A stretch of 54,257 nucleotides of DNA, taken from positions 1 through 54,257 of the forward strand of contig CANJCO010000034.1 of the NCBI GenBank assembly GCA_947473045.1, given 5' to 3'. Both the position numbers and the translations under genes were made by a program. The notes below the pieces were generated by a model. That model worked only from the letters and a program-made list of their open reading frames with translations, did not search any database and was not told the origin of the DNA. Positions 1 to 4,014 of the stretch are shown here, in pieces. Within the stretch, counting starts at the first letter, position 1; each line of letters begins with the position of its first letter. The stretch is from Myxococcales bacterium. GTDB lineage: Bacteria > Myxococcota_A > Polyangia > Polyangiales > Polyangiaceae.

Positions 1-147
1 GCAGGGTGTTGAAAAACACCCTGATAGTAATTGGCGAAGCCAATTGCGTGGGGTGGGGACCCCGAAAAACCGCGTTTTTCGGGGCGGGGAGGTGCATACC
101 TCCCCGAGATGAAAGGCTAGCAGGCCGTTCTTCAACGGCCTGCTAGC
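1..147. repeat. Array of five tandem hairpins (structured intergenic element)
   Basis: Five near-consecutive inverted repeats fill this stretch. Arms 2-10/15-23 (CAGGGTGTT, loop GAAA) form the first. Arms 29-35/39-45 (AATTGGC, loop GAA) form the second. Arms 60-70/74-84 (CCCCGAAAAAC, loop CGC) form the third, arms 86-93/98-105 (GGGGAGGT, loop GCAT) the fourth, and arms 116-129/134-147 (14 bp, loop CTTC) the fifth. All arms are perfect. The last hairpin contains the stop codon of the desaturase gene on the minus strand, so that gene's transcript would end in it. No T-run follows any stem, so it is not a classical intrinsic terminator. It could be a dispersed palindromic element, a Rho-independent stop without a U tract, or a structured RNA. 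The element may continue left of the window. Confidence 0.8.
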
Positions 148-1243
148 GCAAGGCCAGCGCGAAGCCTCCCGCGAGCGTCGCGAGGCGCACGAGCTCGAGC
201 GGCGCAGCCCAGCGCCTTCGCTCGAGCAGCCCACCGAGCGACACGAGCCCGGCGCCGATGCCCACGCACACCACGATGAGCGAGGCGCGGGGCAGCAGCC
301 CGCGTGCGAGGATCACGACCGACATCGCCGCGAGCAGCACCGCGAACTGCGCGCCGACGTAGCGCCGCCGCGCGGGCGTGAGCGCGACGTCATACTGTGG
401 ACGTCCCAAGTCGACGGGCCCTGATTCCTCGGCGCCGCGCGGCTTCCAGGCTGGCGACGCCACCCAAACGCGAAGCCTGTCGGCGCCGCGCAGCGCGAGC
501 GTCCGCTGAGCGAGCTCCATGAAGAAGTGCACTTGCGCCCACAGCGGGTTGAAGCTCGCGAGCGGCTTCGTGATGCCGTAAACGCAGGGCTCATTTTCCT
601 CGGCATACGTACCGAACAGGCGGTCCCACACGATGAGCGTCGCGCCGTAGTTTTTGTCGAGGTACTGCGGATTAATGGCGTGATGCACCCGGTGGTGATG
701 AGGGAGATTCACCACATAGTCGAGCACTCCGCGCACCTTACCGACGAGGCGGGTGTGGAACCAGAACTGGTAGACGATCGACAGCGCGTGAATGAACGCG
801 AAGATCTCCGTAGAGACGCCAGCGAGCGCGAGCGGGAGGTAAAACGGCAGCGCCGACCATCCGGTCGTGATCGACTGCCGGAGCGCGACGGCCAGGTTGT
901 AGTCCTCGCTCTGGTGGTGAACCACGTGCGCCGCCCACAGAAAGTTGACCTCGTGCGAGAGCCGGTGCCACCAGTAGTAGAGAAAGTCGACGCCCACGAA
1001 CGCGACCGCCCACGCGAGCCAACCTTGCAGCGACGTTACCCGGTGCGCGTAAAACCACGCATAAACGCCGAGCTGCGCCGCCATGAAGGCGACGCCTTCA
1101 AGCTGTGAGGCCACGCCGCACGACAGGTCGGTGATGGTGTCGGCGAGGCGGTAGGCGCGAATTCCGCGGCGATGGGCGACGGCAGCCTCTACGCCGATGG
1201 CGACGACGAAGAGCGGAACCGAGACTGCGATCGGGTCGAACAT
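143..1243 (-). CDS. Sterol desaturase / fatty acid hydroxylase family membrane protein
   Basis: The 366-residue protein carries the three histidine clusters of the membrane di-iron fatty-acid hydroxylase superfamily: HRLSH at residues 93-97, HVVHH at 106-110 and HRVHH at 184-188. Further conserved sequence, NPQYLDKNYG, follows the third cluster. These ligate a di-iron centre used for O2-dependent hydroxylation or desaturation of lipids or sterols. Hydrophobic segments surround the clusters, and extra hydrophobic stretches after residue 285 form a C-terminal extension. The overall pattern resembles the bacterial relatives of alkylglycerol monooxygenase and sterol desaturase, but the substrate cannot be read from sequence. 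It stands alone on the minus strand, divergent from the lipoprotein-FadL pair. No strong ribosome site is visible before the ATG. Confidence 0.85.
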   Translation of the reverse strand: MFDPIAVSVPLFVVAIGVEAAVAHRRGIRAYRLADTITDLSCGVASQLEGVAFMAAQLGVYAWFYAHRVTSLQGWLAWAVAFVGVDFLYYWWHRLSHEVNFLWAAHVVHHQSEDYNLAVALRQSITTGWSALPFYLPLALAGVSTEIFAFIHALSIVYQFWFHTRLVGKVRGVLDYVVNLPHHHRVHHAINPQYLDKNYGATLIVWDRLFGTYAEENEPCVYGITKPLASFNPLWAQVHFFMELAQRTLALRGADRLRVWVASPAWKPRGAEESGPVDLGRPQYDVALTPARRRYVGAQFAVLLAAMSVVILARGLLPRASLIVVCVGIGAGLVSLGGLLERRRWAAPLELVRLATLAGGFALALR

Positions 1244-1354
1244 GACAGAAGTCGCAGCTTACCGCGACACGCGGCGCGCATCACGCCTCGAGGCGGCGCA
1301 GGACGCGCGATAAACGACTGCCGCGATTGCTGCGGCTCAAGTAGCGTAGCGTGC

Positions 1355-2488
1355 GTGAATCGATTTCGCCCCGCCGCGCGCGCGGTCTTCATCGCCGCCA
1401 CCATTTCAGGCTGCGCCCACGACGTCGTGCTGCCCGATGAGTCCGCCGGCGCAGTGTGCGGCGACGGCGTCGTGCAGAACGGCGAAGCGTGCGACACGCA
1501 GAGCGGCGGCTGCGCCGAGTGCCGCGTCGTGCCCACGTGGGCCTGCCCGGCCAACCATTGCGCCCCGATCTGCGGCGATCCCGTCGACGGCGTGGTCGGC
1601 GACGCGCCCGGATGCCAGAACCCCCGCAAAGACACCGACTGCGACATGACCGGCTACTGGATGTCACGCGAGACCGCATTTTCCCGCGACACCGTCATTG
1701 GCGCCGTTCAGTCGACGAGCGCCTGGGCGCTCTACCGCTTTTCGCAATCGGGAGACGTGTTTCAAGTCGAAGAGCACCTCGCGTGCGGCAATCACTCCTC
1801 CGGCAGCGCCACGATCGACCCTACCTCGGGCGCCCTGCGCGGCTTCCTCGCGCACAACCATCAGGATCCGACCGGCCTCCACGGGCCCCGGAAAGGCACG
1901 TTCAAGCCGCTCTCGGGCGCGTGCAGTTTCAGCTTCGACCGCTGGTACGAGATTCACGGGGCCACCGAAGACCTGCTCCCTGCGGACTTCTCCCAGCATC
2001 CGGACCTGGCGTCGCTGCCGAAGCTGCCGAGCGAGAGCGATCCGGTACATCCCACGAAGCAGAGCCTCACCGGCGCGATCGATTTCGACGGCGACGGGAC
2101 GCTGGGTTTCGGGGCGCTGGTGACCGGGGTCGCGTCCGGCACGCGCTACATGGTGGGTCGCCAGTGGGTCGAGTTCGCGACCACGCCCGGAAAGTTGATA
2201 CCTCCCAAATCGCTGGCGTTGATCGCGGCCGGCGCGTGGGATTTGCAGGAGAGCGTCATCAGCGTGACCGACTGTGGCACGGCCTGCGCGCTCATCGCCG
2301 CCGGCGCGTATGCGGCCAAAGACCTCGCCACGCGCACGACGCTGGTGTTCTTGGGCAGGAGCCTCGCCTCTCCCCGCGTAGCGTCGGTCGTTCAGGCGGC
2401 GCCGCGCAAGGACGTAACGACCGACCTCGCGACGTGCGCCCGCGTGCGCAGCGCCCTTCCCCACGAGACCTCGCTGACGCCGCCATGA
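1355..2488 (+). CDS. Lipoprotein with myxobacterial Cys-rich (disulfide) repeat
   Basis: I place the start at GTG 1355 because it gives a clean lipoprotein signal (basic start, hydrophobic core, lipobox ISGC with Cys20). The frame is open further upstream but that sequence is not signal-like. The mature 377-residue precursor begins with a myxobacterial disulfide-repeat motif (CGDGVVQNGEACD, then more Cys pairs). The remainder is predicted globular and contains an Asp-rich DFDGDGT stretch that could bind calcium. The function is unknown; lipid anchoring to an envelope membrane is inferred from the lipobox. Its stop overlaps the start of the FadL-like gene (ATGA), implying translational coupling and a shared envelope role. 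Confidence 0.75.
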   Translation: MNRFRPAARAVFIAATISGCAHDVVLPDESAGAVCGDGVVQNGEACDTQSGGCAECRVVPTWACPANHCAPICGDPVDGVVGDAPGCQNPRKDTDCDMTGYWMSRETAFSRDTVIGAVQSTSAWALYRFSQSGDVFQVEEHLACGNHSSGSATIDPTSGALRGFLAHNHQDPTGLHGPRKGTFKPLSGACSFSFDRWYEIHGATEDLLPADFSQHPDLASLPKLPSESDPVHPTKQSLTGAIDFDGDGTLGFGALVTGVASGTRYMVGRQWVEFATTPGKLIPPKSLALIAAGAWDLQESVISVTDCGTACALIAAGAYAAKDLATRTTLVFLGRSLASPRVASVVQAAPRKDVTTDLATCARVRSALPHETSLTPP

Positions 2489-4014
2489 CCACTGCCCATC
2501 GCCATCTGTGCCTCGCCGCCATGCTCAGCTTCGGCGCAGGCGCTTCGCTCACGACCCGCGCGGAAGCCTCGCCGCTGTTCGAGACCATGGGACCGGTGGG
2601 CTCCGACGGCGCCATGAGCCCCTCGGCAGCAGGCGCGTCGGCGGCGTCCACCTACTTCAATCCCGCCCTGCTCATCGACGCGGAAGACAGCGCGCTGTTC
2701 GGCTTCGCCGTGCTGTCGGAGCAAATCGCGCTCACGCTCGACGGCAGGAAGGGCGGCGCCGATGTGCCGCTCGCCGTGGCCGGGCGCGACGTTCTGGGAG
2801 GCGACGGCCAGCCGATCTCGAACGCTACGGTACCGACGCAGTGGCTCGATCAGGGGTGCGATGAGGGCACGCGCAAGGGGCAATGCAGCGCTCCGGCGTT
2901 TGGCGCCCGACCCAGGCAGTCGCGCGGATCGAGCGGCAACACCCGCGCCTACCTCGCGCTGGGGCTTGTCCGCGAGCTCATTCACGATCGTCTCAAGCTG
3001 GGGCTCTACGGACTCGTGCCCGTGTCGCGCCTGACGACCGCATCGACGTTCTACAACGACGAGCGCGAGGCGCTGTTTTCCAACAGCCTGCACCCCGAAT
3101 TGTATGGCGATCGCCTCACCGCGATCTCGCTCTCGGCGGCTGCTGCGTTCAAGCTCCTCGACACCTTCTCGGTCGGCGTCGGCGTCTCGCTCGGTCTCAC
3201 CAACGCTGCGTCGAGCGCCACCTACATTCGAGACTCCTCAAACTATGACTCCCTGCTCATCAACAATCAGGTGGGAGTCACGGTCGCAGCCTCTCCGCAA
3301 ATAGGTGTATCCTACAAGCCATTTTCCGGGCTGCGGTTCGGCGGCGCGCTGCACGCGCCCGAGGCGTTCGTCATCGACACCACGATCGGCGCGACGCTTC
3401 CCTCGGGCGCGCAGTCGGGAGCCACCAAGAGCGAGGTGCACGATTTCATGCCCTGGCGCGCCTCGTTCGGCGTCGAGGCTGACGTCGTCAAGCAGGCGCA
3501 CTGGGGGCTCGGCCTCGCCGCGAGCGCGAAATACGGCTTCTGGTCGGCCTACCTCGACCGCCACGGCGCGTCGCCGTCGACGTATGGAACCGATCTCGCC
3601 TGGAAAGATACGATCACGTGGGCGGCCGGCGTGCGACCGAAATACGGGCCGGCGCGAGGCTGGATCGACATGCAGTACGCGCCGTCGCCGGTGCCCGAGC
3701 AGAGCGCGCGCTCGAACTACGTCGATAACGACCGCGTCGGCATGGCGGTCGGCACCGACGTGACCGTTGAGGTCGGCGGGGCGAGGCTGCGGCCGGGGTT
3801 GTCGCTCGTGGGCTACAGGCTCATCCGACGCCACAACACCAAGATCGACGCGCGCATGGTCGACGAGCTACCCGACGGCGCGATTTACGCGGGTTCACGC
3901 GAGCCGGTGCCGGGAGCCGCCGGCCTGCAGACGAACAATCCGGGTTGGCCCGGATTCGCCAGCGAAGGCTGGGTGTACGGCGGCACGTTCACCCTCGATG
4001 TGCTGCTGAAGTAG
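2485..4014 (+). CDS. FadL/OmpP1/TodX-like outer-membrane channel
   Basis: This 509-residue protein starts at the ATG that overlaps the stop of the preceding lipoprotein gene. Residues 1-28 form a Sec signal peptide ending near TRAEA. The mature N-terminus has the family pattern of an Ala/Ser-rich segment followed by a tyrosine-phenylalanine-asparagine-proline-alanine (YFNPA) motif. In FadL relatives this is the N-terminal plug of a 14-stranded barrel that passes hydrophobic molecules across the outer membrane. The rest shows alternating amphipathic strands and ends in a hydrophobic beta-signal-like LDVLLK. Length fits the family. The substrate is probably a fatty acid or other hydrophobic compound. 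The coupled lipoprotein is a possible partner, which is inference. Confidence 0.8.
   Translation: MTTAHRHLCLAAMLSFGAGASLTTRAEASPLFETMGPVGSDGAMSPSAAGASAASTYFNPALLIDAEDSALFGFAVLSEQIALTLDGRKGGADVPLAVAGRDVLGGDGQPISNATVPTQWLDQGCDEGTRKGQCSAPAFGARPRQSRGSSGNTRAYLALGLVRELIHDRLKLGLYGLVPVSRLTTASTFYNDEREALFSNSLHPELYGDRLTAISLSAAAAFKLLDTFSVGVGVSLGLTNAASSATYIRDSSNYDSLLINNQVGVTVAASPQIGVSYKPFSGLRFGGALHAPEAFVIDTTIGATLPSGAQSGATKSEVHDFMPWRASFGVEADVVKQAHWGLGLAASAKYGFWSAYLDRHGASPSTYGTDLAWKDTITWAAGVRPKYGPARGWIDMQYAPSPVPEQSARSNYVDNDRVGMAVGTDVTVEVGGARLRPGLSLVGYRLIRRHNTKIDARMVDELPDGAIYAGSREPVPGAAGLQTNNPGWPGFASEGWVYGGTFTLDVLLK

Follow-up and report, generated by a model that had tools for sequence, protein, structure and literature searches.

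The usual view of MITEs is that they arise passively, by deletion, from a single IS. Those of the IS5 family are short, free of ORFs and present in many copies, share their terminal inverted repeats with an IS5-family element of their host genome and lie in YTAR targets; in all these respects the element described here is alike. REP/BIME sequences, and REPINs with their RAYT, resemble it in being palindromic, dispersed and located 3' of genes, with termini that often supply a TAG stop codon, as the accessible part of PMC3733652 describes. A third point of comparison is IS711 of Brucella, for which the accessible part of PMC2266754 reports duplication of the TA of YTAR and a preference for palindromic repeats (Bru-RS) as targets. 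Pneumococcal BOX, RUP and SPRITE repeats are small, insert into one another and have an RNA-like structure (PMC10969869, accessible part), a likeness by description. No such element is named among the matches listed in a search of the open-licence literature on MITE/REP, YTAR and myxobacterial repeats, nor in the accessible part of a review of myxobacterial genomics (PMC8538405).

The element differs from IS5-family MITEs in that each of its ends is itself a perfect palindrome, and in that its interior has no match in the IS and consists of a covarying multi-hairpin core which stands between other ends in other genera. It is unlike REP/BIME and REPIN in its YTAG instead of GTAG flank, its five hairpins, its IS5-like ends and the lack of a Y1 match in this genome. 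IS711, in turn, is an autonomous IS, and the likeness to Bru-RS is one of description; copies of the element do nest at the CTAG of other copies, as IS711 reportedly does in palindromic repeats. We consider it likely that the stretch is a MITE-like non-autonomous IS5-type element, often situated at stop codons, with an older core inside. MITE/REP-like elements as such are an already known kind. The part that looks new is a structured core which persists while the ends change, and this departs from the usual picture of MITEs.

The window, meaning the whole stretch of DNA analysed, is an entire contig of 54,257 bases that starts inside a copy of the element, so that base 1 truncates the left target. 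Only the last base of the left YTAR target is kept (G, position 1; the target is CTAG in the commonest copies). The element body covers 2-142, and the right YTAR target CTAG follows at 143-146. No listed ORF (≥80 aa) overlaps 1-142, and the body of 141 bp is too small for a transposase. The initial annotation had described the first 147 bases as consisting entirely of five perfect inverted repeats. All five are present, each with a perfect stem, and they occupy most of the stretch, the exceptions being the unpaired segments 48-59 and 107-115. Five hairpins are obtained on either strand, far beyond shuffled controls: folded as RNA, 1-147 reaches −87.6 kcal/mol where shuffles average −50.2 (z −9.0; 0 of 200 shuffles), and the opposite strand folded as DNA gives z −13.0.

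On the + strand the left terminal hairpin (2-23; CAGGGTGTT-GAAA-AACACCCTG) is predicted to pair 2-10 with 15-23 (9 bp), and its first 12 bases are identical to the left end of the IS5-family element of the genome. Hairpin 2 (27-47; AATTGGC-GAA-GCCAATT plus flanking pairs) has nine pairs, 27-35/39-47, seven of which form the perfect repeat 29-35/39-45. The unpaired segment 48-59 contains GGGGTGGGG at 50-58. Hairpin 3 (60-84; CCCCGAAAAAC-CGC-GTTTTTCGGGG) pairs 60-70 with 74-84 (11 bp) and is joined directly by hairpin 4 (85-106; CGGGGAGGT-GCAT-ACCTCCCCG), pairing 85-93 with 98-106 (9 bp). The right terminal hairpin (116-147), seen in sequence, repeats, fold and copies, pairs 116-129 with 134-147 (14 bp) and holds CAGGCCGTTCTTCAACGGCCTG (121-142) between two CTAG. 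The conserved core, which the covariance models R1 and R2 recognise in other genera, spans 25-111 on the + strand.

A dispersed palindromic element was one of the options offered by the initial annotation, and copies throughout the genome show it. The right hairpin occurs at 63 places in the 5.15 Mb genome (≤3 mismatches; reversed control 0) and the left hairpin at 64 (control 0). We estimate about 60 copies of the element, which is only an estimate because a copy split over two contigs can count twice among the left ends. The same annotation had taken a single copy and unconserved hairpins as arguments against an element; further copies were found, and the core is conserved in relatives. Among the near-identical copies returned by a 200-base query (the best 40 of 267 candidates scored) most lie at contig ends. 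The repeat therefore probably broke the assembly, and the element is the probable cause of its many contigs. That the window itself begins at a contig end could suggest chance or an artefact of assembly, a reading already refuted and to which we attach practically no credence: interior copies exist with unique flanks on both sides, and homologous cores occur in other genomes.

In these interior copies the unit spans CAGGGTGTTG to AACGGCCTG between YTAR-like tetranucleotides. The tetranucleotide before the 64 left ends is CTAG in 33, which in these commonest copies precedes CAGGG, TTAG in 13, CTAA in 7, CTAT and CTGG in 4 each, TTAT in 2 and CCAG in 1. Older, diverged copies are also present, and in some cases one copy has another nested at its CTAG; 13 of 85 flanks were flagged as adjoining the hairpin of another copy, which we read as nested insertion. 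For nine interior copies the flanking tetranucleotides could be compared. They are equal in five (CTAG in C7:78399, C18 and C32, CTGG in C49, TTAG in C104) and differ in four (C19 TTAG/CTAG, C33 TTAG/CTAA, C6 TTAT/TTAG, C82 CTAT/CTAG). The copy at C7:75801 was excluded as ambiguous, with TTAT on the left and, on the right, CTAA, an extra right hairpin and TTAG. A 2-bp TA/TG duplication fits all ten interior copies, a weak test as TA is nearly fixed.

The mover of such an element was sought through its ends. The end motif TAGCAGGSYGYTGAA is present in 13 of 59 genomes searched, with 133 occurrences in the genome of the window, while the reversed motif gives 6 matches over all 59 genomes and none in this one. 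In one of these genomes (G043) the motif stands at both ends of a complete IS, about 1.3 kb long, with CTAG outside on each side. Its protein is an IS5-family transposase (265 bits against NCBIfam IS5_4; Pfam DUF772 and DDE_Tnp_1), and as a query it has one match in the genome of the window, 67-68% identical. This transposase (locus L105) reaches 273 bits against IS5_4, for which the cut-off is 140, and the IS around it reads TTAG|CAGGGTGTTGAA ... CTCAACGTCCTG|TTAG. The ends of the element agree with those of this IS in 12 of 12 letters on the left and 10 of 12 on the right, and both have the YTAR type of target. Shared ends and target type argue that the element is the MITE-like partner of an IS5-type transposase.

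The IS at L105 is without the palindromic form of the ends, and no core match was found in the ISs with such ends (L075 and L105). The element is thus not a simple deletion product of that IS. Ten other genomes were searched with the G043 protein, giving matches in G043, its source, and in G011, where CTAG|CAGGGTGTTGCAGAACACCCTG and CAGGCCGTTCTGCAACGGCCTG|CTAG, palindromic ends of the type of the element, enclose a leftover piece of the same transposase. The other eight, G005 among them, have no related transposase at E≤1e-5; G005 nevertheless has elements with the same type of ends.

IS701 was considered as the mover and rejected, since the sole IS701 element of the genome has different ends (CACTACTTTGACA). 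This IS701-family element (locus L053, contig C54, 1-1540; transposase of 412 aa) has landed in the left-hand CTAG of an element copy, with CTAG on both sides. In G026, elements of about 230 bp (locus L078 on C168, about 1501-1731, and C532:13009-13240) have the same TAGCAGGCTGCTGAA ends and are without the core (best 14 bits); judged by their sequence they are another MITE with these ends. The end motif also has 21 occurrences in G038, a genome from a different family of the same order; at its loci L086, L094 and L099 the ends lead into other DNA (GTACCGAGCCCG...) with no core match.

Hairpins beside TAG, a position 3' of genes and the stop-supplying termini described for GTAG REPs (PMC3733652, accessible part) would also suit repeats of the REP/BIME type, moved by a tyrosine transposase (Y1, RAYT) with specificity for hairpins of single-stranded DNA, and so would the solitary hairpins, flanked by CTAG in G005 and preceded by TTAG or CTAG in G007. 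The ends match a DDE-type IS5 element instead. Y1_Tnp (PF01797) has no match in this genome at E≤0.1, the assembly being 99.98% complete, while the same search was positive in 8 of 14 genomes used as control. Neither a GTAG nor a CGTC tag stands at the foot of the hairpin among the 64 left tags, although a single mismatch would have revealed GTAG. We therefore regard spreading by a Y1 transposase as improbable.

The position of the copies relative to genes is a further characteristic of the element. In the window the CTA of the right CTAG serves as stop codon (143-145, TAG on the minus strand) for the minus-strand gene at 143-1243, which encodes a protein of 366 aa of the fatty-acid-hydroxylase family (Pfam FA_hydroxylase) and has its 3' end inside the right target of the element. 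Throughout the genome 28 of 85 flanks (16 of 47 left, 12 of 38 right) end an in-frame coding-like ORF exactly at the target. In the window, 3 of 52 YTAR sites do so (Fisher p 1e-4); the contrast to CTAG sites alone, with 1 of 8 in the window, is not significant because the window holds few of them. Coding ends were judged here from open length and GC by codon position and not by a gene finder. A YTAR target together with the loss of harmful insertions would explain this pattern.

A second genome (G022) goes further than that, as the stop codon is joined there to one specific end of the element. The left end starts with TGA, and in 23 of 26 copies this codon closes a coding-like ORF in frame, compared to 152 of 1384 CTGA sites; 21 copies were recognised in 27 loci, and 26 under a looser rule. 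By our own reading of the table, 13 of the 21 have a coding-like frame on the opposite strand that ends within 40 bp of the right end. The flank table of the other genomes has 61 rows for 58 distinct places (L180/L252, L181/L240 and L179/L191 were entered twice), and the positions of 20 loci in it (L235-L254) were set by rule and are rough. With these bounds, a coding-like end lies within 90 bases upstream of the core in 35 rows, and a converging one within 110 bases downstream in 38.

Strong GC-rich hairpins and the opposing frames that end near the right end in G022 would suit ordinary intrinsic or two-way transcription terminators. As the initial annotation stated, no T-run follows any of the hairpins 3' on the + strand, and five hairpins are more than a terminator needs. 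A near-identical sequence at about 60 sites, with end motifs shared with an IS, is not expected of terminators either. We consider this explanation unlikely.

The core is not confined to this genome. A covariance model built on hairpins 3 and 4 and the bases around them matches 29 of the 108 family genomes, from 17 of 48 genera, and a wider one matches 43 of the 317 genomes of the class Polyangia, from 27 of 151 genera; copy numbers in these genomes are lower bounds, as 40, 41 or 14 candidates were scored per genome depending on the search. For covariation 41 distinct sequences were used, from 28 genomes and 16 genera of a single family. In this set 97.5% of the cells pair, and 17 of 19 pairs show compensatory changes, among them all 10 modelled pairs of hairpin 3 and 7 of 9 of hairpin 4. 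Such two-sided changes affect 103 cells. Sliding the partner leaves no more than 10 pairs and 23 cells, and neither observed value is reached in any of 500 shuffles. This alignment was fitted to the model and thereby favours the structure. A MAFFT alignment of 15 sequences points more weakly in the same direction, with 5 of 19 pairs changed on both sides (6 of 500 shuffles) and 17 cells (0 of 500); one of the five measures, further pair types, is not above the shuffles there (453 of 500 as high). Hairpin 2 was rejected as a covarying helix and left out of the model, as its pairing differs between genera. It is frequently closed by GC-GAA-GC, as in the window; d(GCGAAGC) is an unusually stable DNA hairpin. 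GGGGTGGGG is unpaired and yet, in the alignments, among the best conserved stretches of the core, and the best conserved of its unpaired parts.

An exact-pattern scan of named genomes, with a pattern that deliberately does not fit the copies of the present genome, gave 48 stretches; records close to the window may be missing from it. By record title 40 of the stretches belong to Polyangiaceae, Labilithrix or 'Myxococcales', and one to Sorangium; the other seven lie in different phyla or groups. Scored with R2, the Sorangium stretch and these seven reach at best 21.6 bits, four of them without a listed match, and we take them as chance. Four G-tracts (GGGGTGGGG ... GGGGCGGGG; 50-58 with 81-84 and 86-89 in the window) are mostly conserved across genera and could form a G-quadruplex competing with hairpins 3 and 4.

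The covariation of the two modelled stems may come from selection that acts either on RNA or on single-stranded DNA in its folded form. On the + strand G-T pairs outnumber A-C cells by 17 to 5, a small excess in related rows which is only suggestive of the + strand as the folded one. Together with the 17 covarying pairs and the fusion of the left end to the upstream stop codon in G022, this excess could be taken to mean that the sequence is a structured non-coding RNA or an mRNA 3'-end element kept for a function of the host, with dispersal being secondary. We see this as possible and rather doubtful. Strict filters, by which weak matches may be lost, left 79 of the 108 family genomes and 274 of the 317 class genomes without a match. 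The core is also absent at the related sites examined, which counts in favour of the MITE-like reading: in G001, G085 and G035 the relatives of the gene next to the element lack a core match at the 3' end, and in G001 the genes around two copies (L009) stand in the same order with no core in the corresponding stretches, where the spacing also differs by other DNA, so that these are not clean empty sites. Absence from most genomes and from related sites indicates that no conserved host gene seems dependent on the element. Rfam covariance models have no match at E≤1 across 1-3000 of the window, and in ten core-bearing loci a tRNA was the only match at E≤0.1, with none for the element.

The ends that surround the core differ between lineages. 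They are of the CAGGGTG/CAGGCTG type in the genome of the window, G005, G001 and G077, those of G001 reading CAGGCTGATGAA, outside the motif TAGCAGGSYGYTGAA. AAGRGCTGTC-like ends surround the core in G022 and G068, and still other hairpins in G085/G090, G023/G102 and G104. Hairpins also occur alone: four loci of G005 (L127, L129, L132, L133) have solitary hairpins without the core, flanked by CTAG or ATAG. A core with different ends in different lineages and hairpins that stand by themselves make the element look modular. The solitary hairpins, which were also seen in G007 (L054, L058), are about 22-35 bp long, have TAG at their feet and resemble two transposon ends placed back to back.

For the MITE-like element that we prefer, the following mechanism can be proposed. 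The IS5-family transposase would act in trans, recognising the ends CAGGGTGTTGAA on the left and CAGGCCGTTGAA on the right (read inwards), and insertion would take place at YTAR with duplication of at least the central TA. YTAR contains TAG or TAA, so that an insertion at a stop codon leaves the gene intact; such insertions would survive and those within genes would be lost. Insertion at stop codons thereby makes the element almost harmless. The core, with its three hairpins and GGGGTGGGG, may have a longer history than the present ends, because other genera carry it between different end hairpins. It could persist by being harmless or useful in the transcribed 3' end of a gene, for instance in protection of the mRNA 3' end or in two-way termination between converging genes. 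From its position we infer, and favour, such a role in transcribed 3' gene ends, or at least harmlessness there. Should the core indeed work on the 3' ends of mRNAs, a single mobile element would re-wire dozens of gene ends.

More tentatively, and with less conviction than doubt, the core may be viewed as a separate, long-lived parasite or helper: a three-hairpin module bearing G-tracts that would swap transposon ends from lineage to lineage, dock at stop codons and act, when transcribed or single-stranded, on the 3' ends of many genes of the host simultaneously, in other words a mobile and portable 3'-end module of Polyangia.

Two single occurrences of the core may be added. In G085 it lies just upstream of the hydroxylase gene's relative, at the end opposite to that in the window (locus L305 on C10, 2663-2750), perhaps by coincidence. 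In a genome of another genus (G006) a copy 99% identical to the element is located at 1-119 of locus L061 (C52), the only match there among the candidates scored. It sits at the start of a contig of 4,965 bases and represents either a recent transfer or a stray contig.
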